From: a virus
IMG/VR virus record: IMGVR_UViG_3300025860_000003
Span: 62,001 to 126,000 of that record
Reading direction: 5' to 3' (one strand)
DNA length: 64,000 bases
Positions 20,112-36,300 of this stretch are shown here, piece by piece; position 1 is the stretch's first letter, and each line of letters starts with the position of its first letter. The translations under genes and the position numbers were made by a program. The notes under the pieces are model-generated. The model did not search any database. It had not been told where the DNA came from and saw only the letters and a list, made by a program, of their open reading frames with translations.

Positions 20112-20119
20112 TATTTATA
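20112..20119 (-). promoter_or_regulatory. T4-type late promoter TATAAATA (110-aa gene and downstream fibre gene)
   Basis: Perfect TATAAATA on the minus strand, 38 nt upstream of the 110-residue gene and just past the glycosyltransferase stop. Confidence 0.86.
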
Positions 20120-20132
20120 AGGAATACACTTC

Positions 20133-21260
20133 CTATATTTTGATTTTTTGCTTTTTCATCTTTGTTGCTGGTATAGACCCGCTTTGTATGCACTTCTCCA
20201 TTAAAGATTCCTGAGTAGAGTTTGATGGGTGTTTCACAAACATTCTATCACCAGCATCATTGTATGCGACCCAAACATATTCACCAACCACCCCATATAC
20301 TTCTGCTGAATATTCTACTGGATAATCGACTTCTAATTCTGGAAGATAAAATGACTTAGCGAGTACACCCTCCCTTTCCATATCACTAACCTTTGCATTG
20401 TATGCGTACATCCAATTGAAATTATTAGAACCAAACCCAGAAACATTACAAACAACTCCTGGGATACTATTATCATATATGTATGTTGGTGTCAATTCAT
20501 CTGTACATACCATGTCAAGCCTGCCGTGATATGCTTCATTCTTGAGTGTTAGGTATTGAATCGTATCTTCCCCTATAAGAATATCCTCAATGAATGGAAC
20601 CTTTGCAGCCTTTCTTGAGTACCACGTCACCCTGCAATGTGCTTCAGTCTTCTCCGAATACAGTGCTTGCTTTCTATAGTATTTCTTTTGCTCAACTATC
20701 TCTCTATATGAAACTGATTTACTGGGCAACACTGAGTCTAGATGATCTGTGTTTTGTATGAGATGGTCAGACGGTCTGGTGAATGGGAATTGAGGTTTGA
20801 CATACAGGTCTTCTTCTGTTAGTGAATCAACGCCACCTTCCTCAACTTTCCTGCGAATCAAATCGTGTTTTTTAGCGTCAACAACCAAAGCAACTTGATT
20901 GTATAAACAAATACAATCTGGGGGCGATTCTGTATTGGATATATGTTTGTACATCCATACGCCATGCGGTGTTAAGTAGTCGTCGCCGTCAATCAAAACA
21001 AAGTGATCGTCATCCTTACTGAGGAATATGTCTAGAACACTATTCTTTCCCTTTCCAGCAGATCCATTAGACTCTGTTATGTAGTATTCTATGCCCTCAG
21101 CCTCACACCACTCCGATGCACTTTCGACATAGGTTTTATTTAGACTGTTTATGACTACAACAAGATCTTCCTTTTCGATCCCACTAGCGTTGGGATCAAC
21201 GTGTCTTTTGAGTCTATCTAATCTCCTAGTTGTGAGGACATAAAATTTAAACTTAGCCAT
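20133..21260 (-). CDS. Glycosyltransferase, GT-A fold (GT2-like)
   Basis: 375 residues. The N-terminus KFKFYVLTTRRLDRLKRHV and LVVVINSLNKTYV are typical of nucleotide-sugar-binding GT-A domains, and FVLIDGDDYLTPHG holds the metal-binding DGDD at residues 91-94. Donor and acceptor are unknown. The start overlaps the stop of the collagen-modifying fusion gene by 1 nt, and it is the last gene of the fibre operon. The simplest inference is that it acts on the fibre proteins, possibly extending the sugar added to hydroxylysine. Modification of host surface glycans is an alternative. Confidence 0.8.
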   Translation of the reverse strand: MAKFKFYVLTTRRLDRLKRHVDPNASGIEKEDLVVVINSLNKTYVESASEWCEAEGIEYYITESNGSAGKGKNSVLDIFLSKDDDHFVLIDGDDYLTPHGVWMYKHISNTESPPDCICLYNQVALVVDAKKHDLIRRKVEEGGVDSLTEEDLYVKPQFPFTRPSDHLIQNTDHLDSVLPSKSVSYREIVEQKKYYRKQALYSEKTEAHCRVTWYSRKAAKVPFIEDILIGEDTIQYLTLKNEAYHGRLDMVCTDELTPTYIYDNSIPGVVCNVSGFGSNNFNWMYAYNAKVSDMEREGVLAKSFYLPELEVDYPVEYSAEVYGVVGEYVWVAYNDAGDRMFVKHPSNSTQESLMEKCIQSGSIPATKMKKQKIKI

Positions 21261-23131
21261 TAATTCATGTCACCTTGGTATCTTGATGTCCACATAGTTA
21301 AGCTGTACTTGACACCTTTTTGGAGTTCCATACACTCATGTCCGTGTGTCACCATTCCAGGAAATAGTATGCAGCGACCGACAGCAATATCTTTATTCGA
21401 TATATTTTGTCTGTGGAACAATAGATCAGCGCCTTCATAGTCGTCATTCAATTTTACTGACCCTGTAACCAAACTTGCGTCTGTGTGGTGGCTCAAGCTA
21501 GTCTGTGTGTCCATAGCATACCGCATAACAAAGGCATCACGCAAGCCATACATCTGCATCGGACGCCAATATTGTTCAATAATCGGATAGAGATTTTTCT
21601 CCCAATGCCTTTCTAGTGTTTGGAACATACCAAGTTCTTTCATGCGTATTTCTTGTGCTGGAAATTTGTCTCCAGGAAGTGGTTCCCATGCGCCATTTCT
21701 ATCAGCGACATCAATTAAATCTTCACACTGCGTTTGTGTCATAAAGTCACAAACCAGCATATCCGTGTCTATAATGTCAACATGCTTGAATGCAGGCAAG
21801 TATAGCATTGGAGTGACTTGCTTCACCGATCGCACCATACCATCAAAATGTGTCTTAGCCTCGTTTCCTCCATTACCATGATAGATACATGAATATGCGT
21901 TGGTTATAGGATTGAAGACTTTCTTCTGATCATACTCGAAATATGTATCTGTGTCATGTGTCTGGAAGATATAACACTCATTATCAAGAGCAATGTCATA
22001 TTTGCCAGACAGAAACGCTTTTTGGTAGAAGAGCTGATCATCTTCATACTCAGCAATCTCGCTATCTGCGACAATACGCTTCAATTCGTCAACGCGACCG
22101 ATGAACGTTCCGCTGTTCAAGTATTTGTATTTCGTGTCGCACTGCGGAAACTTATCCGCAAGGCTCTTATCTGGCCAAATGTATTGTTCTGCTGAGAATA
22201 CAACTTTCTTCTTGAACCCAAGGTATCGTCTTGTTATTTCTTGGATGTCTGCATTGTAAATAACATCATATGCGTCTGTGAACAAAACAACATCACTATC
22301 AGGCAGTGTGTTGAGATACTCACGAAATATAGTCACCTTGTGCCCACCACCTGCTCCTGACATGTCAGTGCCTTTCCACTCAACATTGGTTCCTAGATTT
22401 TTAGGGTATACGCTATGCAACGCTGCGCTATCATTTAGCGGGATACACTTCTTACGATCAGTCCCTATTGTGACGGGATGGGTTTTAAAATCAACGAACC
22501 AGCCGCTGTCTTCTTCCTTCTCAATATCGGTATGTAATACCGTTCTACATTCTTGCTTCACAACATCTGTTTTCAGCGCCACAGCATTCAGATCCACTAA
22601 TCTGGAGCAGAGATAATCGTCTGTTGGTATGATGTCGTGCATGAATTTAGCGTCAGAAAGAACCTTTGCTGTTTCTGGAGTGATCACATACGCATGAGCA
22701 TTATATGGATGATTCGGGACAACCAACTTACTGTCAATAGATTTTGCTAGATCAGGAGTTTGTTCGATGTGTCCTAAGAATATGATACCGTAACTATTCG
22801 TCAGGTCTTCTACATATTCTTCATCATATCCATCAAGAAAGACTGCATCATCTTCTAATACTAGAACAGGCTCGCCTAGTTTGATGCAGGACAACCACGC
22901 TTCTCTGTGCGATAAGAAACAGCCAACTTCACCGTGGTTTATTGTTCTGTTGAAGAATGGATCCCGCCAACCAGACTTGGTCGACATATTGAATTGTTTG
23001 AGTGTTTGATGAGTGACTTCCTTTCCGTCTATAGCTTGAATCCACGAGACATCACCTATATGACTATTCTTATCTAGAAAGTTTATTTTGCGGTCTGCTC
23101 TCCGATCAAGATTGATCACCAACTTCTTCAT
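21260..23131 (-). CDS. Collagen lysyl hydroxylase-glycosyltransferase fusion (GT25 + PLOD GT + 2OG-Fe(II) oxygenase)
   Basis: A 623-residue, three-domain protein. Residues 1-210 are GT25-type: LVINLDRRADR at 4-14, GEVGCFLSHREAW at 67-79 and metal-binding EDDA at 93-96. Residues 215-440 match the glucosyltransferase domain of animal procollagen lysyl hydroxylases: VVLFTDAYDVIY at 281-292, KVVFSAE at 309-315, LNSGTFIG at 338-345, DDQLFY at 364-369 and HGNG at 418-421. Residues 450-623 match the hydroxylase domain: iron ligands H549-T-D551 and H596, DYEG at 564-567 and a probable 2-oxoglutarate anchor K608. All key residues are present. It lies in the same operon as a fibre rich in Gly-X-Lys collagen triplets, its likely substrate. 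Mimivirus L230 is the nearest known viral parallel. Confidence 0.85.
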   Translation of the reverse strand: MKKLVINLDRRADRKINFLDKNSHIGDVSWIQAIDGKEVTHQTLKQFNMSTKSGWRDPFFNRTINHGEVGCFLSHREAWLSCIKLGEPVLVLEDDAVFLDGYDEEYVEDLTNSYGIIFLGHIEQTPDLAKSIDSKLVVPNHPYNAHAYVITPETAKVLSDAKFMHDIIPTDDYLCSRLVDLNAVALKTDVVKQECRTVLHTDIEKEEDSGWFVDFKTHPVTIGTDRKKCIPLNDSAALHSVYPKNLGTNVEWKGTDMSGAGGGHKVTIFREYLNTLPDSDVVLFTDAYDVIYNADIQEITRRYLGFKKKVVFSAEQYIWPDKSLADKFPQCDTKYKYLNSGTFIGRVDELKRIVADSEIAEYEDDQLFYQKAFLSGKYDIALDNECYIFQTHDTDTYFEYDQKKVFNPITNAYSCIYHGNGGNEAKTHFDGMVRSVKQVTPMLYLPAFKHVDIIDTDMLVCDFMTQTQCEDLIDVADRNGAWEPLPGDKFPAQEIRMKELGMFQTLERHWEKNLYPIIEQYWRPMQMYGLRDAFVMRYAMDTQTSLSHHTDASLVTGSVKLNDDYEGADLLFHRQNISNKDIAVGRCILFPGMVTHGHECMELQKGVKYSLTMWTSRYQGDMN

Positions 23132-23197
23132 TCTCTACCCCATAATAATTGTGTGTATCAGTTTTGTATTATATTTAGGAGCGGTCGTAGAATTACA

Positions 23198-23503
23198 TTA
23201 CCTGATGAATGTGTGCAGACTATTCAAAGCTGTCAACAATTCCCCTGCTTCAAATTTATTATCATCAATTGGTGTGTTATCTCTGTGTGTTATAGATATT
23301 TTTGGATACTCTGTAAACTCGGGGAAGAGTGTTTGTGATTCACTTTCAGTGAAATCTGCGCCCAAATTAAGAACAGTAACATCAAACTTGTACAACGACC
23401 AAGGATATTTTCTATCAACAAGCCAATTGTCTACAGTTGCGGACGCAGAATCAACACCAGTTGAGTTGGCATCGCTATATATTTTTATCTTTATTTCACT
23501 CAT
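23198..23503 (-). CDS. Small protein with degenerate glutaredoxin-like pattern, 101 aa
   Basis: 101 residues starting EIKIKIYSDANSTG. The layout resembles glutaredoxin: a first strand KIKIYS, a helix, then GADFTESESQTLFPEFTEYPKISIT (compare the family's cis-proline strand, here YPKISI) and a final helix GELLTALNSL. The CxxC redox site is absent and the protein has no cysteine, so it would not be a redox enzyme. It sits between a fibre-type gene and the collagen-modifying enzyme. The role is unknown; the fold call is tentative. Confidence 0.65.
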   Translation of the reverse strand: MSEIKIKIYSDANSTGVDSASATVDNWLVDRKYPWSLYKFDVTVLNLGADFTESESQTLFPEFTEYPKISITHRDNTPIDDNKFEAGELLTALNSLHTFIR

Positions 23504-23516
23504 TATGTTCTCTGAA

Positions 23517-24584
23517 TTAGTCGTGGAATGTTACATATGGTGCAAATACTTGCAGACCGCCACTCAGTACTGAAGGGTTGGCAGGATCGTGCAGGTCATT
23601 GTCACCTTCATGCATGTACGAGCAGTTTTCCGCAAAGTACATGGCGAAGCCTAGTTTCCTGCTAGTTCCTGTCTCTAGCGTGATTGTCGCTTCAATGTCT
23701 GTCCATTGCTCAATGTTGTCTTGATCTATTAGTAGTGATTCAGTAGCGGTGGTTGTGGTTTGGTTGGTGTAGAATGGCGCATTTGTACTAGTCGATTGAG
23801 GGGTGTTTGACATTCCTGTCCAATTATACTTTCCAGGATCTCCAGTCAAATCACCTGTCGGAAGAGTGTAAGATGCGTCAGTGTGTTTAATTCTGATGTA
23901 GTGCACCTTTTTATCTAGCCCAGTCGCATTCTCAGACCAAACATAAAAGCCTGCAAAATTCAATTCTCTCAGTTTATCTCCCGCAGGAATTCGCACTTTA
24001 GCTCCGAACTTAGCGGTTGTCTTGCCGTCTGGAATTGTCAGAGTCTGGAACCACTCCGTAACATTAGTCCACAATCCGACATTAGTCATAGCAGTGCTGC
24101 TGTCGATCGTGGATAATGTTGTGTGCGTAACCATCCTTGTCTTCGTTAAATTAGTGTATTTTCCGTTTTGAGAAGCACCTCTATCCGCATCATTGTTGGT
24201 GAAACTGCCTGTCGCCGAACCTGCGAACAGAGTGGCAGAACCATATATTATCAGAGGGTTTGGTATATCAATGCCTTCACCAAAATCTGTAACCGTATAT
24301 CCAGGATTGTCCGTTATCTGCAGATTGCCCATGTATGTGTAATACTGATTGGTTGCGATTATTAGCGGTGAGTAATGTCTCCATGCGGGAACAGATGTAT
24401 TGACGCCATTACTGATGGTGGTTGATGTGGTGGCGTTGACAAGCCTGTTGACACCGTTGTAATTAAACCCTACAGGATAAAAGCTGCCATGTGCCCAGAG
24501 AGGATTCTCTAGTACATTATCTGCGCTAGATACTGGAGGCACAAGGTTGTTTGGGGCAGTTGATACAACTGCGCTACTAAACAT
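23517..24584 (-). CDS. Putative fibre/receptor-binding protein, 355 aa
   Basis: 355 residues, Thr-, Asn- and aromatic-rich, without signal peptide or membrane segments. Segments such as KFGAKVRIPAGDKLRELNFAGFYVW and WTDIEATITLETGTSRKLGFAMYF alternate hydrophobic and polar residues as in jelly-roll or lectin-like sandwiches. It overlaps the stop of the 1072-residue fibre gene by one base, so it is probably a distal fibre or adhesin component. The family is not recognised. Confidence 0.7.
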   Translation of the reverse strand: MFSSAVVSTAPNNLVPPVSSADNVLENPLWAHGSFYPVGFNYNGVNRLVNATTSTTISNGVNTSVPAWRHYSPLIIATNQYYTYMGNLQITDNPGYTVTDFGEGIDIPNPLIIYGSATLFAGSATGSFTNNDADRGASQNGKYTNLTKTRMVTHTTLSTIDSSTAMTNVGLWTNVTEWFQTLTIPDGKTTAKFGAKVRIPAGDKLRELNFAGFYVWSENATGLDKKVHYIRIKHTDASYTLPTGDLTGDPGKYNWTGMSNTPQSTSTNAPFYTNQTTTTATESLLIDQDNIEQWTDIEATITLETGTSRKLGFAMYFAENCSYMHEGDNDLHDPANPSVLSGGLQVFAPYVTFHD

Positions 24585-27500
24585 TATTGTATGCCTGAAC
24601 CGAAACAGCTATATACGTTTTCTGCTGTACACACAATCTCAATAATTCCACCTTTTTGAATAGCTATTGAAGCTGCCGTGAGAGGACTTGCTCCCAACAC
24701 CAACCTGCTAAAAACGCTATTTGTATTTCTGCTGATCGTTACTGTTGATGTTCCTGCATTGACTAATGTGTAAGTGACACCCACATCAGCAGCTGGACAA
24801 TCATCTAATGTCCATGCACTAGCGGTTGCGCCATTGTATACAAGTTTTCTTCCGCTGTGCGTAGCCTTATTAATGCTGGCCACTGTGCCACTACCAATAA
24901 TAAGGGCAAGTTGACTGCCTTGAAATGAGTCGCCAGTAATAGCTCCTGCTGTAAGAGCACCAGTGCCAATGTCTATACTAGTAAACCCAGAAGTAATAGA
25001 ACCAGAATTAAGCGCACCAGTTGTAACGATATTACTAGAACCTGCGAATGTGCTTATCGCAGAATTCTCAACATTGTCCAAAGATAAGTCTGATTTCAAT
25101 TCAGCATAAGTTCTGCCTTTGACATTAGTGGTGCCCATCAATAAGACATCATTAGTTACTAGAGCTTCTTCAGATTTTAATGCGTTACCGCTCGCTTTAC
25201 CGAAAGTAAGAGCGCCTTGAGCGCCGATATCAGATAATACTTGAGCATCAGTTCGACTAACAAGACCTTCGGATGTGAATTGGGCAAACTCCCCACTAAC
25301 AGGAGTGCCATCAGCCACAAGACTATTTGTGTCAGCTATGCCAAAGGAGAGAGGCGCTTGCTTTGCATTCCAAGTATCTGCGCTAGAGATATATGTGTCT
25401 GTGATTGCTGTGCCATTCCACACACCAGTTCCAATAGTGCCAACACTTGTCAGTGACGAAGCAAGCACAGTAGAACCTAGAGTTGTTTGGTTCAACACTT
25501 CATTAGCATTGATTCTAAATGTTTTTGCAGAAGCTAATTCTAAATGCTCTGAAGATGTCCATGAATCAGTTGAGTCGACCCAGTTAAGTGTCTTATCAGT
25601 TGTGCCTTTAAGAGTTATGCCGCCACCATCAGCAGTGGTGTCTGTCGGTGTGGCTACGCTCCCGAGAACAATGTTCTTATCATCAACACTTAATGTTGTG
25701 GAGTTGATTACAGTTTCTGTACCATTTACTGTAAGATCGCCAGTTACGACTAGATCTCCCGATACCGATGCGTCGCCGTTTACTGCGAGGTCTGTAAGAT
25801 CTAATGCATTTTCAGTTCCCCCCACCCCTATAGTAACAGTTCCAGGTTCTAGTACCATTACATTTTTTGGGTTTGGAGTATCTATTGACCAATTGGTAGC
25901 ACCAGCTTTCGTGACCTCAAAAACCATTTGGCCAGCTATAGCTGATTCAGTACAGTTAGTAAACTTGCTAAAGATTCTGCCAGATGGCTTATATGATTCG
26001 ACGTTGGAATTGTCAGTATCAATAGCAACGCCGTAAAAGGGAATTACTCCCGTAAACTCTGTGGAAGATGTAGTCAGCCCGCTTGCAATGGTTTTTGAAT
26101 TAAAGAAATTAAGGTATGGCGATGCCCCGTTAATTATATTGGATTGAGCAGCCTGCACAACATTAACGTTGATACTTTCGCCAGCAAACTCAGTAGATGT
26201 GGCAGAAGACCCAACAGTTGTTAGATGTGTTAGAGAAGCATTTACAGCAAACGATGCATGGTCTGCCGTTTCTGCGGTGGTGTTTGCAACAAATGTCAGA
26301 CCTGTGTTTGCGAGAATATATGTCGGTGGTCTGGTCCAAAAACCTGCTTTATTTAATACTAGCTCTGGGTCTTCTCCAGCAGCACCACCAAGGTTTGCAA
26401 ATGCTGCGCCAGTAGATAAGCTGAATACTGTTGTATTCAGGTCTAGCCCAGTTCCTGCTGTATATTCTGTATTGTTATCGGAAGGAGCAACCCAAGAGCC
26501 ATCCTTTGCTAATAATAAAGATTCATCATCGCCCGATGCACCACCAAGGTTTGTAAGTGCCGCATTGATACCAAGTGTGATTGTATCATTAAGGGCAACA
26601 TTGGATGAGGCAATAACGTTGATGCCAGTACCGCCAGAATACTGCTTAACTGAATGCCAACCACCATCCTTTCTCAAGAAAGTGTGGAATAGAGGCTTGT
26701 CAGTCGTTTCTGGGTCCAAACCGCTGTAGTCAGTTCCATCACCACCAAGGTTTGTAAGTGATGCGCCAGTAGATAAGCTGAACTCAGTTCCATCTAATGT
26801 AAGACCAGTACCGCTAGTGTATGTTGTGTCTACAGGAGTAGACCACGCACCATCATTGCGCAAGAATGTTGTTGTGCTGCTGCCGCCTGTCAAATTACTT
26901 AGCGCAGCTCCGTCAGATAATGAGATAGTATTTGTGTCGAGATCTATCCCTGTTCCAGCAATTAGAGCAGTTTTTGATATTGATATTGCAGCGTCTGATT
27001 TGATATCAGCATTAATAATTGAATCGGAAGATATTGATGAAACACCACCAGCAGTGAATGTCACATCTCCAGTGATAGATTTATTATCCCAAGTATCAGT
27101 TCCATCATATATTAAGAATTGTCCAGCAACTGGGCTGGCAATGCTGGTGTCATTCAGTGAACTTATAGAGGATGTCGCATCTACATAAGCCTTTACAGAC
27201 TGTGATGTAGGGACATTAGTTGCTGTTGCTGTTCCGAAACTATCATCATCGATGAAGTCTGTTATTGTTAAAGCGCCTGTCCCACTAAATCCATCGGCTT
27301 CTACTGTTCCTGCTACATCAACATCTGCTGTAATGAGAACATTGTCCGTATCAACCCTTTTGATCGTCGCATCATCAATCCACTTACTTGTAGCATTATC
27401 ATACACTAGCAGAGAACCGTCGACAGGATTGGTGATATTAACCTCATCAATATAGTCGATTGCACCAGCTCGCGTAACTTCTTGAGTTACTGTCACTTGT

Positions 27501-27802
27501 CCTTGAACTAATCTTGTGCGCTTATCAGCACCAGATGTGATCTCAACATCATAGACATATCTTCCAGCTTCTAATGAAGAAGTGACAGACCGTGCCAACT
27601 CAATTGTGACCTCACCAGAAGTGCGCAACCCAAACCCTGCGGTAAATGGGGTTGCTGTTGAAGAATCATATGTTTTTCGGATCTGTCCCGCAACTGTGTA
27701 TCCGCTTAGATCGATGATAGATCCTGTCGATGTTTTCGCGATAATAGTTTCGGAGAAATCCGTACCTTGATCGACCTGTATGTTGAGCTTTTGAACTGAC
27801 AT
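24584..27802 (-). CDS. Tail fibre protein, 1072 aa, BppU-like N-terminal domain
   Basis: The N-terminal 115 residues (KLNIQVDQGTDFSETI, IDLSGYTVAGQIRKTY, LEAGRYVYDVEI) match the small beta domain that starts many phage fibre/baseplate upper proteins. The remainder is repetitive Gly/Ser/Thr/Asp-rich fibre sequence with several TGTGLDL-type and LTNLGG-type repeats, a motif VSGDLVVTGDLTVNGTETVI near residue 690 shared with the adjacent collagen fibre, and a globular end with conserved Gly. It begins directly after the collagen-like fibre gene and is probably part of the same fibre apparatus. Confidence 0.85.
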   Translation of the reverse strand: MSVQKLNIQVDQGTDFSETIIAKTSTGSIIDLSGYTVAGQIRKTYDSSTATPFTAGFGLRTSGEVTIELARSVTSSLEAGRYVYDVEITSGADKRTRLVQGQVTVTQEVTRAGAIDYIDEVNITNPVDGSLLVYDNATSKWIDDATIKRVDTDNVLITADVDVAGTVEADGFSGTGALTITDFIDDDSFGTATATNVPTSQSVKAYVDATSSISSLNDTSIASPVAGQFLIYDGTDTWDNKSITGDVTFTAGGVSSISSDSIINADIKSDAAISISKTALIAGTGIDLDTNTISLSDGAALSNLTGGSSTTTFLRNDGAWSTPVDTTYTSGTGLTLDGTEFSLSTGASLTNLGGDGTDYSGLDPETTDKPLFHTFLRKDGGWHSVKQYSGGTGINVIASSNVALNDTITLGINAALTNLGGASGDDESLLLAKDGSWVAPSDNNTEYTAGTGLDLNTTVFSLSTGAAFANLGGAAGEDPELVLNKAGFWTRPPTYILANTGLTFVANTTAETADHASFAVNASLTHLTTVGSSATSTEFAGESINVNVVQAAQSNIINGASPYLNFFNSKTIASGLTTSSTEFTGVIPFYGVAIDTDNSNVESYKPSGRIFSKFTNCTESAIAGQMVFEVTKAGATNWSIDTPNPKNVMVLEPGTVTIGVGGTENALDLTDLAVNGDASVSGDLVVTGDLTVNGTETVINSTTLSVDDKNIVLGSVATPTDTTADGGGITLKGTTDKTLNWVDSTDSWTSSEHLELASAKTFRINANEVLNQTTLGSTVLASSLTSVGTIGTGVWNGTAITDTYISSADTWNAKQAPLSFGIADTNSLVADGTPVSGEFAQFTSEGLVSRTDAQVLSDIGAQGALTFGKASGNALKSEEALVTNDVLLMGTTNVKGRTYAELKSDLSLDNVENSAISTFAGSSNIVTTGALNSGSITSGFTSIDIGTGALTAGAITGDSFQGSQLALIIGSGTVASINKATHSGRKLVYNGATASAWTLDDCPAADVGVTYTLVNAGTSTVTISRNTNSVFSRLVLGASPLTAASIAIQKGGIIEIVCTAENVYSCFGSGIQ

Positions 27803-30800
27803 CTATTTGTTTCCTAGTTCTTCGATCATTTTTCTGAGTTCTTGATTTTCTTCTTTCAGTTCTTTTATCGCCTCAATGAATAGGGCAGATAACTGAGCAT
27901 AATCAACTGTCTTATATTCTGTGGCGTTCACAATGTCATCGCCCGCTCGTGTTGTTACAGCTGACGGTAAGACTTTTTCTAAACTCTGCGCTATAACACC
28001 AGCACTGTCTTTACCACCATTGGTGTAGTTGAATGTTACACCATCAAGCGATTGCAACTTTTCAACTGCGTTATCAACAACTTCTATATTTTCTTTCAAT
28101 CTCTCATCAGAAACAGAAGCACCACCAAAGGCGATAATATCACCCTTAACTGCAAAATCACCAGCGGTGTTCAACGAACCCACTAGGCTGCTGCTGACGT
28201 AATGGAGAAGACCAGATGTCGAATGTGCAGTAAAGGTGCTGGAGTTGCCGTTATAGGCTAACGCGGTGGAAGCAACTCTTTGGTCTGCAAGATTGATTGT
28301 GGAAATGTTCGTGGTAGATATCTGAAGCCCACTAGACGAAGCCAAGAAGCCAAACCCATTAGTAGATTCATCCCAGAATACAATTCTATCAGCATTAGGG
28401 TCTGCTAACGAAAGAAGTCCTGGAGCACCTTTAGTGCCTTTCATGCCCTTAGAGCCTTTAGCGCCTCCAGCGCCTTTAGTGCCTTTCATGCCCTTAGTGC
28501 CTTTAGCGCCTTTAGTGCCTTTAGCCCCTTTAGTGCCTTTAACGCCTTCAGCACCTTTAGTGCCTTTAGCCCCTTTAGTGCCTTTAGCCCCTTTAGTGCC
28601 TTCAGCACCTTTAGTGCCTTTAGCCCCTTTAGTGCCTTTAACGCCTTTCTGACCTAAATCGCCAGTACGGGCGAATGTCACGATAACATCTTCATCAGCA
28701 CTGAACGAAGTCGCCGAGCCAGCTACATGTGCGCAGTTTACTGTGAAGTGGGCAGCGTTTTCATTAATGCCAGTAATTGTGAAGATAGCAAAATCAGAAG
28801 CATCTTGTTTATTTGAAATTCTAAAATGACCTTTTAAGGCAGAAGTAGAATCGTCAATAGTTCGTAAGAATGATTGTATGTCTGTGCTATTGTCATCTGA
28901 ATCAGCAATAAACATTTTGTTTGCATCTGCTGGTGTCGAATTATTTAACCTTAGCCCGCCTGTTCCTGGATCCGCATTACCAGTAGCAGTTTTGAAAGTG
29001 TAGTCAAAAGTAGCACCGCCAAAGTTTCCTTCACTACCTTTAGCGCCTTCAGCACCTTTAGTGCCTTTCATGCCCTTAGTGCCTTTCATGCCCTTAGAGC
29101 CTTTAGCGCCTTTGTCACCTTTAAGACCTGTGCTATCACCAGCCCATTTACCATCACCTTTGATAACTTCGGTGTTACCCATATGCAGTGGTTGGAACAG
29201 TTTTACTTTGTCTTGGATGACCGACATTACAGCGGTTGAGGCAACCTGCTGATCACCAGTACTACCACTCGTCAACTCGAAGTCCATTGAGGCATTGGTG
29301 CCCTCATCAGCATCAACATTAACGCTGATCCGCGCAGAGTTACCCTTTACACCCTCAGTGCCACCAGCCGTTTTATCTGGTGTTCTCGATCTGTGGTTGA
29401 ATGTTACATTCGCATTACCGCCACCATCATTTGCGGTTAGTGCAATACCACCACTACCAAACCCAGCTTCAATGTATCCTGAAGTAGATATGTTATCGGA
29501 TATGCCAGATACCGCACCTGTCGCACCTTTAGTGCCTTTAGCGCCTTTAGCGCCTTTATCGCCTCCAGCGCCTTTAGTACCTTTAGCGCCTTTAGTGCCT
29601 TTCATGCCCTTAGAGCCTTTAGCGCCTTTGTCACCTTTAGCGCCTTCGCCCACAAGTATAACTGCAGCAGACCATGTCACAGTAGTATCAGTTGCAGTTC
29701 CTTCAGCACTAAATGTGCCAGTACTGACATATAGATCTGATCCAGCTACTGGAGCAGGGATTGTAGCAGACCAACCATTAGGTGCAGTTAGGGTATCATT
29801 AGCGAAGTTATATGAGCCGTCATCTGCAGTTGGTGTAGCCAACGCAGTAGCACTACGCTTGTAGACCTTAGCAACAATAACACTTACACCTTGAACACCA
29901 CCAGCCCCTTTAGTGCCTTTAGCGCCCTTAGTACCTTTAGCCCCTTTAGTGCCTTTAGCGCCCTTAGTGCCTTTAGCGCCCTTAGTACCTTTAGCCCCTT
30001 TAGTGCCCTGTAGAGCTGCGTTTGTGATTGTGGCTTTCTTGAGCTTACCTGTATCAGAAGCGTCTAGCACTAGAAGATAATCGCCGCCAACTACGCTATT
30101 TGTGAGATCAGTCCTGTCTGCAATAGTTCTGCCATTATCAGTTAGGATTTCGTCATAGTTGGTTCCGTCAACCGTTAGATCCCAAAGACCGCTATCACCA
30201 CCCTCCTTCCATCGAATATCAACATCGGCTTGCGCACCACGATTGACCTGTAAACCAGCATCTTCAGTGGGGGTGTCACCAGCCGCAACATCACTATTCA
30301 GAGTGATCTGATTATCAGCAACATCTAAAGTTTCAGTATTGATTGTTGTTGTAGTGCCTGATACAGTAAGATTGCCAGCTACTGTCATATTCGTAGTTTG
30401 GACATCACTGAATCTTTTAGTTGAAGATCCGAGAGCAACAGAGTCATCCGTTTTAGGAATGATGCTTGATGCTAAAGAACCAGTAACTGTGATGTCGTCG
30501 CCAGTGCCATCACCAAGAGAAACAGCACCATCAAGAGATGTCGCCCCAGTGACAGTAAGCGAACCAAGCGAACTTGATGCGGTGGTAGATACCCCACCTG
30601 GAACATTTAGTTGGTTGTGGAATGTTGTATTCGCCCAAACAGTCATTGACGTGATATCGCCAGCAACGTATGCAGCCCTAAGTGCTGCATCTTGGGTAGC
30701 AGGATTAGCATCTGCATAATCAGCAGGATCATATACCACACCAAGAGTGATGTTGCTATTTGCACTCAGCGTACCATGAACATTAACGTCACTGCCCTTA

Positions 30801-33025
30801 ATCCCTATGGTAGCATCAGCACCAAGAGTGACGTCGCCATCAACATTTAAGGTTCCGTCTAAGTCTGTATTGCCTTTAACTCCAAGCGTGTTAGACAATG
30901 TTGTTGCGCCTGTAACACCAAGAGTAGAACTTATTGCAGTCGCACCACCAGCAGTCAGAGTTGTGACCTCTGTCGCACCAGCAGTCAGAGCAGCGTCTAA
31001 GACTGTTGCACCTTTAACGCCTAGAGTTCCAATAACAGTAGCAGCACCAGATTGTAACGTTTCAAGAGTTGTGGCACCATCGACATTCAACGTACTGTCT
31101 ATATCAACACCACCTTTAACCCCAAGCGCACCAATAACAGTAGCAGCACCAGATTGTAAGGTACTGTCTAGGACAGTTGCACCTTTGACACCCAACGCAC
31201 CAATGACTGTAGCAGCACCAGATTGTAACGTTTCAAGAGTTGTAGCTCCATCAACATTCAGCGTACCATCTAAGTCTGTATTACCTTTGACACCCAACGC
31301 ACCAATAACAGTAGCAGCACCAGATTGTAAGGTACTGTCTAGGACAGTTACACCTTTGACACCCAACGCACCAATAACAGTAGCTGCGCCAGATTGTAAC
31401 GTTTCAAGAGTTGTGGCACCATCGACATTTAAGGTTCCGTCTAAGTCTGTATTGCCTTTAACTCCAAGCGCACCAATAACAGTAGCTGCGCCAGATTGTA
31501 AGGTACTGTCTACAACAGCAGCACCTTTGACACCTAATGCGCCGATAACAGTAGCTGCGCCAGATTGTAAGGTACTGTCTAAGACTGTTGCACCCTTAAC
31601 TCCAAGCGCACCAATGACTGTAGCAGCACCAGATTGTAATGTTTCGAGAGTTGTGGCACCGTCAACATTTAAAGTTCCGTCTATATCAGCAGCGCCCTTA
31701 ACTCCAAGCGCACCAATGACTGTAGCAGCACCAGATTGTAAGGTACTGTCTAAGACTGTTGCACCCTTAACTCCAAGCGCACCGATAACAGTAGCTGCAC
31801 CAGATTGTAAGGTACTGTCTAAGACTGTCGCACCCTTAACTCCAAGCGCACCGATAACAGTAGCTGCACCAGATTGTAATGTTTCGAGAGTTGTGGCACC
31901 ATCAACATTCAATGTACCATCTAAGTCTGTATTACCTTTAACGCCTAATGCACCAATGACTGTGGCGGCACCAGATTGTAATGTACTATCTAAAGTCGTA
32001 GCACCTTTAACGCCTAGAGTTCCAGTAACAGTTGTATTCTTAGCGTCTAACGCTTCAAGAGTTGTGGCACCATCGACATTCAACGTACTGTCTATATCAG
32101 CAGCGCCTTTAACGCCTAGAGTTCCAGTAACAGTTGTATTCTTAGCGTCTAACGCTTCTAGTGTTGAATCACCATCAACATTCAATGTGCCATCTAAGTC
32201 TGTATTACCTTTAACACCTAGAGTGCCAGTGATTGTAGCATCACCAGAACCTAGCGTTCCTGTGAAATTAGCATTGCCGTTTGAGTCAATAGTCGCAACA
32301 ACAGCATCATCTGAGTCTACGATAACCAATTGTGATTGACCAGCAGCATCAACTAATTTTAAGTATAGGTCTGAATTACCAAGAGTCGAATCACCAGCAA
32401 GGTATATCGCAGCAATATCGTTGTTCCCACCTTCACCGCCAGTACCGCCAGAGAATAGTAAGTGTGGTGAATTGCCATCAGCACGGAATGTAGTGTTACC
32501 GCCAGCCATTGTTAAGTCGCTGTTGTTCACTTCATAGGCATGGTCGCCTTGTAAGTCTCTTAATTTGAAGTCTTGATATTGTAGTTCGTCGGTTGTTCCA
32601 CCTTCTTTTATTACAAGAACCTGACCAGAAGCACCGCCACCCAAGCGAATCCTACTCACATCGCCAAGATCGACTTGCTCTGTACCAGTAGTGTTGAATG
32701 TCACATTTGCGTTGAACACAGTATTAGCGTCAACAGTGAACAACTCAACTCCAGCGCCAGTTATATGTGTGTTGGATTCTATAAGAAGCGTTCCACCATT
32801 ATCACCAACTGTGTCGCCGCTTTTCAGTTTATCAGTTCTCAGCGTTGTAGAAGAGAACGTCCCCTCAACATGACCGTCTCCAGTAACTGAGCCGCCCCTA
32901 TTAGCACCACCTGCTCTCGCTACGGTGACAACATTGTTGCTTATAATCGTAGAGATGAAGTTGGTGTTTAATCTCCAAGTATTAAAGCTATCGCTCAGTT
33001 GGGTATTTGATACAGGTACTGTCAT
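27803..33025 (-). CDS. Collagen-like tail fibre with S74 chaperone domain, 1740 aa
   Basis: Architecture from the N-terminus: attachment-type domain (1-150); tandem 23- and 34-residue beta repeats containing LQSGAATVIGALGVKG (about residues 345-680); shared motif LTVSGTTTTINTETL near 895; four Gly-X-Y collagen segments at about 1007-1044, 1126-1171, 1300-1337 and 1455-1536, separated by globular beta domains; and a C-terminal peptidase S74 intramolecular chaperone from about 1639 (SDERLKENI), ending in a Leu/Glu coiled coil. About 54 of 66 triplets carry Lys at Y, mostly GTK and GAK. S74 domains trimerise fibres and then self-cleave before that Ser. The enzyme at 21.3-23.1 kb is its probable modifier. 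Confidence 0.92.
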   Translation of the reverse strand: MTVPVSNTQLSDSFNTWRLNTNFISTIISNNVVTVARAGGANRGGSVTGDGHVEGTFSSTTLRTDKLKSGDTVGDNGGTLLIESNTHITGAGVELFTVDANTVFNANVTFNTTGTEQVDLGDVSRIRLGGGASGQVLVIKEGGTTDELQYQDFKLRDLQGDHAYEVNNSDLTMAGGNTTFRADGNSPHLLFSGGTGGEGGNNDIAAIYLAGDSTLGNSDLYLKLVDAAGQSQLVIVDSDDAVVATIDSNGNANFTGTLGSGDATITGTLGVKGNTDLDGTLNVDGDSTLEALDAKNTTVTGTLGVKGAADIDSTLNVDGATTLEALDAKNTTVTGTLGVKGATTLDSTLQSGAATVIGALGVKGNTDLDGTLNVDGATTLETLQSGAATVIGALGVKGATVLDSTLQSGAATVIGALGVKGATVLDSTLQSGAATVIGALGVKGAADIDGTLNVDGATTLETLQSGAATVIGALGVKGATVLDSTLQSGAATVIGALGVKGAAVVDSTLQSGAATVIGALGVKGNTDLDGTLNVDGATTLETLQSGAATVIGALGVKGVTVLDSTLQSGAATVIGALGVKGNTDLDGTLNVDGATTLETLQSGAATVIGALGVKGATVLDSTLQSGAATVIGALGVKGGVDIDSTLNVDGATTLETLQSGAATVIGTLGVKGATVLDAALTAGATEVTTLTAGGATAISSTLGVTGATTLSNTLGVKGNTDLDGTLNVDGDVTLGADATIGIKGSDVNVHGTLSANSNITLGVVYDPADYADANPATQDAALRAAYVAGDITSMTVWANTTFHNQLNVPGGVSTTASSSLGSLTVTGATSLDGAVSLGDGTGDDITVTGSLASSIIPKTDDSVALGSSTKRFSDVQTTNMTVAGNLTVSGTTTTINTETLDVADNQITLNSDVAAGDTPTEDAGLQVNRGAQADVDIRWKEGGDSGLWDLTVDGTNYDEILTDNGRTIADRTDLTNSVVGGDYLLVLDASDTGKLKKATITNAALQGTKGAKGTKGAKGTKGAKGTKGAKGTKGAKGTKGAGGVQGVSVIVAKVYKRSATALATPTADDGSYNFANDTLTAPNGWSATIPAPVAGSDLYVSTGTFSAEGTATDTTVTWSAAVILVGEGAKGDKGAKGSKGMKGTKGAKGTKGAGGDKGAKGAKGTKGATGAVSGISDNISTSGYIEAGFGSGGIALTANDGGGNANVTFNHRSRTPDKTAGGTEGVKGNSARISVNVDADEGTNASMDFELTSGSTGDQQVASTAVMSVIQDKVKLFQPLHMGNTEVIKGDGKWAGDSTGLKGDKGAKGSKGMKGTKGMKGTKGAEGAKGSEGNFGGATFDYTFKTATGNADPGTGGLRLNNSTPADANKMFIADSDDNSTDIQSFLRTIDDSTSALKGHFRISNKQDASDFAIFTITGINENAAHFTVNCAHVAGSATSFSADEDVIVTFARTGDLGQKGVKGTKGAKGTKGAEGTKGAKGTKGAKGTKGAEGVKGTKGAKGTKGAKGTKGMKGTKGAGGAKGSKGMKGTKGAPGLLSLADPNADRIVFWDESTNGFGFLASSSGLQISTTNISTINLADQRVASTALAYNGNSSTFTAHSTSGLLHYVSSSLVGSLNTAGDFAVKGDIIAFGGASVSDERLKENIEVVDNAVEKLQSLDGVTFNYTNGGKDSAGVIAQSLEKVLPSAVTTRAGDDIVNATEYKTVDYAQLSALFIEAIKELKEENQELRKMIEELGNK
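28419..30007 (-). repeat. Four Gly-X-Y (collagen) coding segments
   Basis: Segments at about 28419-28663 (27 triplets), 29018-29128 (12), 29514-29650 (14) and 29894-30007 (13). The 9-bp unit and its 18-bp GTK-GAK doublet repeat nearly perfectly at DNA level, which would allow slippage and length variation. Only one Pro is seen (GAP) and there are few acidic residues, unlike typical bacterial collagens. Confidence 0.9.
31005..31995 (-). repeat. Twelve tandem 69-bp/102-bp repeats in the fibre gene
   Basis: Twelve copies of a coding repeat centred on LQSGAATVIGALGVKG are spaced by either a 7-residue linker (ATVLDST type) or an 18-residue linker (NTDLDGTLNVDGATTLET type). DNA identity is very high between copies. 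It forms a regular beta-rich shaft and is prone to recombination. Confidence 0.9.
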
Positions 33026-33118: not shown

Positions 33119-33340
33119 CTATTGTCTGTTATTTATTAGAACTTGCAGCATAGTTTTTATATCTTGCATATCACTTTTGAGACTTTCTATCTCGTCTGTC
33201 ACGCGCTTGTCTTTTGCGTTTCTAACTATCTTCTCTTCATATGCTCTATTCGAAGAAACGTCATTGCAAAAGATCGCCCCAGACTCAACATCAAATGTCA
33301 AGTCAGGACGACCTCTAACAGAAACTACTTTCGATTGCAC
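33119..33340 (-). CDS. Small coiled-coil protein between DUF4815 protein and fibre
   Basis: 73 residues. The C-terminal half (KRVTDEIESLKSDMQDIKTMLQVLI) is a clear heptad coiled coil, and a short beta segment VVSVRGRPDLTFDVESGAIFCND precedes it. The start overlaps the stop of the 1962-residue gene by one base. Similar small proteins accompany fibre genes in marine T4-like phages, from memory. A trimeric linker or fibre chaperone is possible; function unknown. Confidence 0.7.
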   Translation of the reverse strand: MQSKVVSVRGRPDLTFDVESGAIFCNDVSSNRAYEEKIVRNAKDKRVTDEIESLKSDMQDIKTMLQVLINNRQ

Positions 33341-36300
33341 TATACAGGTCTCTTATGCGTTACACTAGTCAAGTTGTGTATTGAAGGAGTGTAATCTCTA
33401 CCCTTACCATCAGGGCGAGTCAAAACAATCTTGTATTGGATATAATCAATACCAGAATATCTAGAACCATCCTTTGACTCATACGCAATAATCTTAGTAT
33501 CATCAGTGTTCTCGAACAACTTATTGGTAGTGGCAAACCCAGTAGCGGCAGTCGTAGAGAAAAGTCTGAACAATTTAGTGGTGCTTGAAGTGGAGTCGCC
33601 AAGCGTTGATTGTTCAGCAGGTCTTGTGTAATAATCCTCACATTGGGTGAAGATCTTATCCTCGATAGGCTCAGGGTCATTTTCATTCCTAGCTCTAACA
33701 TACACAGTAACACCACCCTCTTTCGGCATATATCCTCTAACAGCAAAGAAGAATTTCTCGCCAGCACCACCTTCAGGTCGACTAGCAGGAACAACCTGTG
33801 ATATATATCGAGCAGAAGCGTCACCTGCAGGAAACTGCTCATTTCCAGGAGTAGCACTAATTCTTTCTTGCTCAACACTCACCGATGCATCGTTTATATC
33901 GACTGTTGGACCAACGCGAATGTCAGTGGTTGTCATAGTACCTTTAATGAGTAATGACTTTGTATCTCTGTTTGATGCGCTATAGATTCTTTTCTGATCT
34001 TTAGCGAAAACAACCCTTTTGTTCGGCTGGACAGAGGAGAATGCAGTATCAGTAACGCCAGCCAAAGAAGTGGTTTTCATCTGCCAATCAATCTTAGTGA
34101 ATTTTGGTGTGAATATTGGAGCATTTATCGTAATAGCATCAATATCAATATTCGCAACCTCAGTGATTAATGCACCTGCGCCTCTTTCTTGTCCGCGAAT
34201 ATACTCAGTCGCACCAAACCCATGAGATGTAGAGCCTGTTGAATCGGAAAGACGTATTCTGCCATAATCGGTATTAAGAAACGACACTTTACCTTGTACA
34301 GTATTTGCCGTAAATGCAGACGCCACACCTATATTAACATTGTTTCTAAACAACGTGCTGTGGGTATTTGCTGTTGAAGTAGGGAAGTTACCAAACGCAT
34401 CAATCTGAACAATAGTTGATGTGGTGGAAGGTTCAGAAACCACTGACCTCACAGTTCCGTCTGCCCATGTAGTTGTGTCAGTGTTTGTGTTGATGAAAGC
34501 GTCATAATCAGGCACATTCTTAGCAACCTTACTCTTCAATGCATCACCCGCCACAATTGTTACAGCAGCGTCATGTGTTATTGTCATCAAGCATGTTCCA
34601 CGAACGATCTCATCTGTTTGGAATCCCGTGGTTGCTGTCGATGGACCAAATGGAGTTATGGCATTCACATTCAAGAACTCGGTGTCTGAATTATCTAACT
34701 CAAACGTTGCCACTGCTGACTTGGTGAAAGAATTTTGTCGTATGTCAAACTTCAATGCCTCATTCGGCAGTTTTGCCCAGTTATTTCCTGTAGCAGAAGA
34801 AAATAGATCACCAAGTCCAGGAACACCATACGCAGACTTATTGGTAACAACATCTGGTTGGTTTCTTACGCCTGTCCAAAGCTCATATTCATCTTTGGAA
34901 TCAGTAGGAATGACAGTAAACGCATAAGCCTTTCCTGATGTCAAGAAAGGTCTTTCGTCAAAATCAAACTCTACAGGAGTAGCATTCGTCACTGTGCTTG
35001 CCGCTGCAGCGATCTCTGCTTGTGAGATAGGTTGAGATTGCGAGACTAATACGTTAGTCGGACCACCTGCTCGGTCAACTTCCCTAATCTGCAACAGAAC
35101 CGACGATGATGTATCAGACGATGCCTTTGCAAAGAATAGTCTGATGTGATGGCAGAATACGCCATCAATCTTGCTTGACGGAACAATAAACACTTGTGAT
35201 AGAAAATCAGGAAGTTCTTGTGGAATCTCTTTGATACTGACATTCGTCTGTGTTTTATCGGCAGACAGTTCTGAGAGAACAAGGTTTGTTATGTTCTTCT
35301 GTACGCTTTTCGGATCGAGTCCTCTTGATCTCTTAGATGGCGCAAGGTAATATTGTCCACATCGAGTTGTCGAGCCATTCTTACCAGAACTAATGCCGCT
35401 CACTATAGGCGGCTGCACATCACTAACTTCTAGTAAATGCTTCAGTCCTCTGAATTTCATGGTGCTGTCGTTTGGTAAAAAGAACTCGAAGGTCAACTTG
35501 CCTGTCGAATCAGTCATCAGGTAAGACTTGCCTTTCTTCTGACCAGCCAGCTTGGTGTATTTTGTAACATCACGCCCATCAAACCTTGGCCATACCTTGG
35601 TCGACGGCTTCAGACCAGTACATGTAACAGTGATGGGTTTATGCGCAGCTATCACATAGTCGTTAGCAGAACGTGATCGGCTGATGCCTGAAAGGTCTGA
35701 AAACTCAGCCAGCCCAGTGTAATCAATGCCAGCTTTTTTATAATCACTCAACATCCTCGTCAATGTGTTGCTATTCACGCTAGATGGGGTTTGTGTGATA
35801 TGGCATATACTATGAGACAAGGTCATTCTGCCATTGAACACTTGAATGGGTGTAGTTGTCTTTTCGATAATCGGCAAACGCTTTGTGCCGAATACTTGAG
35901 ACAACATAGACTTATGGAAGTTTTGTCTGAAGAGTCTTTTGAATATACTTCCTTGACGGACATTGGACAAAGAACCAGCCCTAACCTCCAAGTCAATATC
36001 TTTCATCTTCGGAATCGGTCGAATAGGTGAACTTTCCGAGATAAAATCGCCAGAACGCAAGGTGTTGTAATATCTTTCGACTGGTTTTGGATTAACAATA
36101 ACAACTTCTTTAGGTGGTTCAACAGCGTCAGCTGCATCATCAACCCGCAATACTGATATTTTTAGTGCTTCAATATCAAGTTTGTTAATTTCAACTTGTT
36201 CTTTTGTTTTTTCTAGATCACCGTCCATCTCACGAAGATCTTCCATAGTATATCTTCGATTATTTTCTCGTTCAAGGTTCACTTGATAATCGTAACGACC

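Follow-up and report, generated by a model that had tools for sequence, protein, structure and literature searches.

A phage protein resembling a fused collagen-lysine hydroxylase and glycosyltransferase is encoded with a lysine-rich collagen-like tail fibre

Hydroxylation and glycosylation of collagen lysines are regarded as a feature of animals, mimivirus being the known viral exception. In humans, LH3 (PLOD3) and COLGALT1 (complex PDB 8zgc) together provide a lysyl hydroxylase (LH), a PLOD-type glycosyltransferase (GT) and a GT25 domain that act on Gly-X-Lys (GXK) sequences, while mimivirus encodes L230, R655 and R699 for the virus's own collagens, of which L230 and R699 were characterised as modifying collagen (PMC9546862). 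A viral collagen prolyl hydroxylase, a 2-oxoglutarate (2OG) oxygenase, is encoded by PBCV-1; a Baltic Sea study described viral prolyl 4-hydroxylase genes with a possible link to fibres (PMC9301287), and a review of prokaryotic collagens states that the full set of these modifications is beyond prokaryotes, bringing up phages for short collagens only (PMC8968730). We found no literature pairing phages with collagen lysine hydroxylation, subscription journals being outside the scope of the search, and this is no proof of novelty. Here, we analysed a stretch of 64,000 nucleotides (the window), bases 62001-126000 of the 133,055-base IMG/VR virus record IMGVR_UViG_3300025860_000003, in which a 623-aa protein resembling these enzymes is encoded with a collagen-like tail fibre. 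An earlier note, made from the sequence alone, had proposed that this protein modifies the lysines of the fibre.

The predicted collagen-lysine modifying enzyme (21260..23131, minus strand) carries, in this order, a GT25 domain (residues 1-205, 22517..23131), predicted to be a hydroxylysine galactosyltransferase, a PLOD-type GT domain (residues 217-430, 21842..22483), predicted to be a galactosylhydroxylysine glucosyltransferase, and a 2OG-Fe(II) domain (residues 450-623, 21263..21784), predicted to be an LH. In Pfam, it matched GT_PLOD at 9e-53 (179 bits against a cut-off of 27 bits), Glyco_transf_25 at 3e-18, and 2OG-FeII_Oxy_3 at 8e-5, under that general family's own cut-off. A sequence search of the PDB returned LH3 (8e-34), mimivirus R699 (7e-33), COLGALT1 (4e-13) and the LH domain of mimivirus L230 (2e-6). 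The GT25 part aligned to the C-terminal GT domain of COLGALT1 (phmmer 6e-14), which is described as the active one (PMC13382579); its fold and EDD motif are those of GT25, this C-terminal domain is its nearest relative, and the sugar transferred would probably be galactose. The AlphaFold2 (AF2) model, built on an alignment of 44 relatives made up of the window and IMG/VR rows only, reached a mean predicted local distance difference test score (pLDDT) of 87.9, and Foldseek retrieved with it full-length LH3 (1.5e-27), mimivirus R699 (1.8e-18) and COLGALT1, as the earlier note had foreseen. The template modelling scores, by target, were 0.84 for the human LH3 GT domain (6wfv) and 0.75 for the mimivirus L230 LH domain. 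The fusion proposed in that note is thus borne out by Pfam, the PDB search and the AF2 model alike. The protein also has a full-length match (1e-123) to PHROG_61, labelled "2OG-Fe(II) oxygenase", as are its counterparts in phages S-CAM9 and S-PRM1; this label covers the oxygenase domain only and assigns neither a collagen link nor a glycosyltransferase role.

The active-site residues of all three domains were invariant in 44/44 rows of divergent enzymes: E93-D94-D95 and H75 in the GT25 domain; D286xxD289, N339-S-G, D364-D365 and H418GNG in the PLOD GT domain; and the iron ligands H549, D551 and H598 (HxD...H) in the LH domain. The enzyme therefore has both the DxxD, DD and HGNG motifs of a PLOD-type GT and the C-terminal iron triad of an LH. 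The catalytic motifs, called complete in the earlier note, are so except at one position, where K608 (21308-21310), ten residues past the second iron-binding His, replaces the 2OG-binding Arg of PLODs in all 44 rows. Lysine binds 2-oxoglutarate in prolyl hydroxylases, so that activity of the phage enzyme would be compatible with K608, but the enzyme is not a textbook PLOD. GT_PLOD ends near residue 430 and the LH domain starts near 450 in the model, leaving no accessory domain between them. It resembles the LH3-COLGALT1 pair in sequence, fold and style of substrate, but consists of a single 623-aa chain where humans use two proteins, lacks the LH3 accessory domain and the catalytically silent N-terminal domain of COLGALT1, has Lys for the 2OG-binding Arg, and would work in the bacterial cytoplasm rather than the endoplasmic reticulum. 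The mimivirus set is split over separate proteins in a giant virus of amoebae, whereas here a GT25-GT_PLOD-LH fusion lies near a tail fibre. The PBCV-1 hydroxylase shares the collagen-hydroxylase fold with the phage LH domain (Foldseek rank 37), but it acts on proline, has no glycosyltransferase domains and comes from a virus of algae.

The predicted substrate is a collagen-like tail fibre of 1740 aa (27803..33025, minus strand), which matched PHROG tail-fibre families, Pfam Collagen (1.3e-18, 67 bits) and, at the C-terminus, Peptidase_S74 (4.2e-13, 49.8 bits), an intramolecular chaperone at residues 1639-1691 (27953..28111). Its Gly-X-Y runs above the Pfam cut-off and its C-terminal chaperone are those of a collagen-like phage tail fibre, in which the triple helix is predicted. 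The earlier note had counted about 66 Gly-X-Y triplets with about 54 lysines at Y; we counted 70 triplets by a loose rule and 64 by a strict one (the latter on the near-identical fibre of locus L003), with Lys at Y in 54 and at X in none. These lie in four segments on the minus strand: residues 1007-1048 (29882..30007; 14 triplets, 11 GXK), 1128-1172 (29510..29644; 15 triplets, 12 GXK), 1300-1338 (29012..29128; 13 triplets, 9 GXK) and 1455-1538 (28412..28663; 28 triplets, 22 GXK). Ahead of the collagen part, the fibre stalk holds an unusual array of about 14 near-identical LGVKG-bearing repeats (QSGAATVIGALGVKG...; residues 267-674, 31004..32227, minus strand), which contributes Gly-X-Lys words, yet is not a collagen run.

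The enzyme was present in 11 INPHARED records, its carriers being Synechococcus phages S-CAM9, S-8S53, S-8S55, S-8S56 and S-PRM1, a marine single-cell virus and Roseobacter phage CRP-6. In all four genomes examined (S-CAM9, S-PRM1, S-8S53 and CRP-6), the enzyme is preceded on its own strand by a collagen open reading frame (ORF) with Y-position lysines, between a few hundred bases and 1.5 kb away; among the four is CRP-6, an unrelated 45-kb phage. IMG/VR held at least 408 relatives of the enzyme; 80 loci were examined, and 23 of them offered the full 10 kb of upstream sequence. A GXK collagen lay upstream on the same strand in 23/23, within 10 kb in 19 and at 13-16 kb in 4. The enzyme loci without a collagen had less upstream sequence and were ended by a contig edge. 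L048, L063, L065 and L074 looked like exceptions at the 10-kb limit, but each has a collagen farther along the same contig. Besides CRP-6 and Kaistia, the paired loci span at least five clades of the enzyme tree, and the linkage is kept down to about 38-45% enzyme identity across different phage types. Two more carriers came from GTDB contigs, a Marinimicrobia metagenome-assembled genome and Kaistia terrae, each with a collagen ORF upstream. Because it recurs in many lineages, the pairing is not a matter of chance. In the earlier note's terms, the link would break if related phages had the enzyme and no GXK-rich protein; the loci with enough flanking sequence included no such case. Taken together, these results confirm the association of fibre and enzyme.

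Unselected genomes gave a different picture. GT_PLOD was found in 0/20 unselected Kyanoviridae genomes, and a collagen in one of them, ACG-2014f (KJ019107, 13.6-15.6 kb; L485), where it is Thr-rich with very few lysines. Collagens thus occurred in 4/4 enzyme-bearing genomes vs 1/20 controls (Fisher p = 5e-4; the four include three that are related to each other and one from outside the Kyanoviridae). Generic 2OG oxygenases were present in 24/24 genomes compared, with up to 11 in each, and the link is therefore specific to this enzyme, neither oxygenases in general nor the fibre locus accounting for it. The converse did not hold: GT_PLOD was found in 1/50 IMG/VR records with K-rich collagens and in 0/50 with Pro-pattern collagens, so that a K-rich collagen was rejected as a predictor of the enzyme. 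A later scan of collagen contigs found a few with whole or cut enzymes (L122, L168, L282 and L254) or variants (L246 and L215). The substrate-like GXK sequence noted earlier is present at the enzyme loci, but alone is no evidence of modification; the preference of Lys for Y over X is likewise weak as stand-alone evidence, as other phage collagens favour Y too. Two further marker sets were of limited use, the gp10-like set being too short downstream for a clear two-by-two comparison and the gp23 set consisting mostly of short contigs.

The collagens encoded with the enzyme differ in composition from those without it. Among 37 distinct enzyme-linked collagens (3241 triplets), Lys occupied X in no triplet and Arg, almost absent, numbered 7, vs 34 for Lys at X and 132 for Arg in 3165 triplets of collagens without GT_PLOD. 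The motif GxKGQKG occurred in 35/37 enzyme-linked collagens vs 12/49 without the enzyme. The usual salt bridge of the helix joins a Lys to a Glu or Asp of the following triplet (KG[E/D]). The median KG[E/D] fraction was 0.33 in enzyme-linked collagens vs 0.91 in the others (p = 3e-12), 0.33 vs 0.91 under a matched selection rule (p = 3e-7), and 0.34 vs 0.97 against collagens not chosen for Lys; the p-values are inflated by sequence kinship, while all comparisons point the same way. The window fibre stands at the extreme, with KG[E/D] in 4 of 75 KG (about 0.05) and a net charge of +46 over 70 triplets per chain. Because KG[E/D] falls beside the enzyme, the lysines appear to be kept for a role other than salt bridges, and the natural reading of these sequences is that they would serve as modification sites. 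In Synechococcus phages, two small 2OG-Fe(II) oxygenases lie between the collagen fibre and the enzyme (L007:18839-20004 and L010:18824-20004); the collagens there have Pro at X, and the small oxygenases are candidates for hydroxylating the prolines of that fibre.

The fusion also occurs in other architectures. Phage contigs near collagens encode fusions of a GT-B type glycosyltransferase, GT25 and an LH-like domain (L246:3352-5736 and L215:2-1858, both minus strand). In Kaistia terrae, a locus that is possibly a prophage (L494:10022-11272) encodes PLOD-GT and LH but no GT25, and a collagen-like ORF lies some 7 kb upstream of it. In a marine single-cell virus, a second copy, GT25 and a partial PLOD-GT without LH, directly follows the full enzyme (L011:1826-4941). 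Such swapping of GT modules around a hydroxylase would be the behaviour expected from a glycan-building system. We lean towards the view that phages of marine bacteria hold the whole glucosyl-galactosyl-hydroxylysine pathway on one polypeptide for use on collagen fibres, in a widespread and modular form (GT25+PLOD-GT+LH, GT-B+GT25+LH and PLOD-GT+LH).

We consider it likely that the 623-aa protein modifies collagen lysines, as a single-chain enzyme acting on the phage's own tail fibre, and animal and giant-virus collagen chemistry probably also decorates phage tail fibres. As far as sequence and predicted structure reach, hydroxylysine glycosylation of the fibre is supported by the domains, the fold, the invariant residues, the linkage and the shift in composition; the modification itself, with the enzyme's activity, the identity of the sugars, the timing and the purpose of the decoration, is what we infer from them. 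In the proposed scheme, fibre and enzyme would be made late in infection from one strand run. Ahead of fibre trimerisation, the C-terminal domain would hydroxylate Y-position lysines of Gly-X-Lys with Fe(II), 2-oxoglutarate and O2, the GT25 domain would put a first sugar, probably galactose, on hydroxylysine, and the PLOD-type GT would attach glucose to this sugar. The virion would then carry collagen rods with glycosylated hydroxylysines. The decoration would most likely serve hydration and stiffness of the rods, protease resistance, or masking and adhesion.

Several observations weigh against this scheme. GxKGQKG, common in the other enzyme-linked collagens, is absent from the window fibre; the enzyme lacks the LH3 accessory domain and has Lys in place of the 2OG-binding Arg; a crude motif scan of the whole record recognised no uridine diphosphate (UDP)-sugar epimerase; and related phages are non-independent observations. 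Moreover, GXK-rich collagens are common in phages without the enzyme (49/50 records), and Lys at Y needs no modification. These last facts would suit an explanation in which Y-position lysines merely stabilise the triple helix through KGE/KGD salt bridges and the enzyme is an inherited hitch-hiker, since KG[E/D] dominates in the collagens without the enzyme. We give this explanation hardly any credence, as such pairs are scarce in enzyme-linked collagens and above all in the window fibre, the effect survives matched selection, and the linkage persists to low enzyme identity across phage types.

This locus in phages often carries glycosyltransferases with a presumed action on host surface polysaccharide, and marine T4-like phages group them with tail fibres in a host recognition cluster (PMC7029224). 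The GT25 family includes lipopolysaccharide enzymes, and the enzyme might thus glycosylate a host surface polysaccharide or other host target, as in superinfection exclusion, the fibre locus being a gathering place for such genes. This is very improbable given that the GT domains are fused to an LH domain, that the GXK collagen partner is invariable while generic 2OG oxygenases (24/24 Kyanoviridae) bring no collagen, and that the composition of the partner collagen is shifted. A partial pathway is unlikely as well, though it deserves more attention: lysine hydroxylation with one sugar, or with another sugar, would give a product other than glucosyl-galactosyl-hydroxylysine. Mimivirus L230 combines a hydroxylase with a glucosyltransferase acting on hydroxylysine, with glucosyl-hydroxylysine as its reported product (PMC9546862), and phage variants swap or lose single GT modules (L246 and L215; L494 without GT25). 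However, every catalytic residue checked is kept in both GT domains in 44/44 rows, and the best solved GT matches are a collagen galactosyltransferase and galactosylhydroxylysine glucosyltransferases.

If collagen lysines are modified in this phage, collagen-lysine chemistry would extend to viruses of bacteria. This would explain the annotated but unexplained PHROG_61 and the oddly Lys-rich, salt-bridge-poor fibres, would raise the question of the origin of animal LH3 and COLGALT, and would offer compact single-chain enzymes for the production of glycosylated collagen in E. coli. The isolated carriers S-CAM9, S-PRM1 and CRP-6 render the reading directly testable.

Directly after the enzyme gene, with a one-base overlap, lies a gene for a 375-aa protein (20133..21260, minus strand) that had no match in the sequence family searches. 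Its AF2 model (pLDDT 72.8) retrieved TarP/TarS in Foldseek at about 2e-6, supporting a predicted glycosyltransferase of GT-A fold, as the earlier note had it. Its part in the pathway is plausible and would be accessory: homologues adjoin the enzyme downstream in L013, L014, L015, L028 and L031, which belong to one clade only, and there is none beside the L006 enzyme, 87% identical to that of the window. For these reasons the gene is not core to the pathway.

The T4-late-type promoter word TATAAATA had 13 exact matches in the window vs 3.4 expected (span 4450-59077), mostly on the minus strand directly upstream of structural genes. Late promoters with one mismatch showed no excess, nor did sigma-70 promoters over shuffles. 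One exact match (20112..20119, minus strand) lies directly past the GT-A gene and is the probable start of the next unit, and between 20119 and 47196 the minus strand had no match. From 39.2 to 17.8 kb, every called gene reads on the minus strand, so that fibre, enzyme and GT-A gene do share the uninterrupted strand run described in the earlier note; for its claim of co-transcription, the promoter layout fits but is no proof.

In the window, we recognised the T4-like myovirus markers portal, major head protein, scaffold, prohead protease, tail sheath, terminase, neck and baseplate. By PHROG, a gp20 portal, gp18 sheath, gp23-type capsid and gp13/14 neck surround the fibre island, as in T4-like marine myoviruses, and the portal is 56% identical to that of S-CREM1 and 55% to that of Pelagibacter phage Mosig. 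The fibre-enzyme locus is flanked by a 1962-aa baseplate-region protein (33340-39228) on one side and the neck genes on the other. In pelagimyophages, this position is occupied by fibres and glycosyltransferases and goes by the name "host recognition cluster" (PMC7029224). Between substrate and enzyme lies a gene for a second fibre or virion structural protein (24584..27802, minus strand; PHROG 1084, 6002 and 3304), which carries no collagen repeats.
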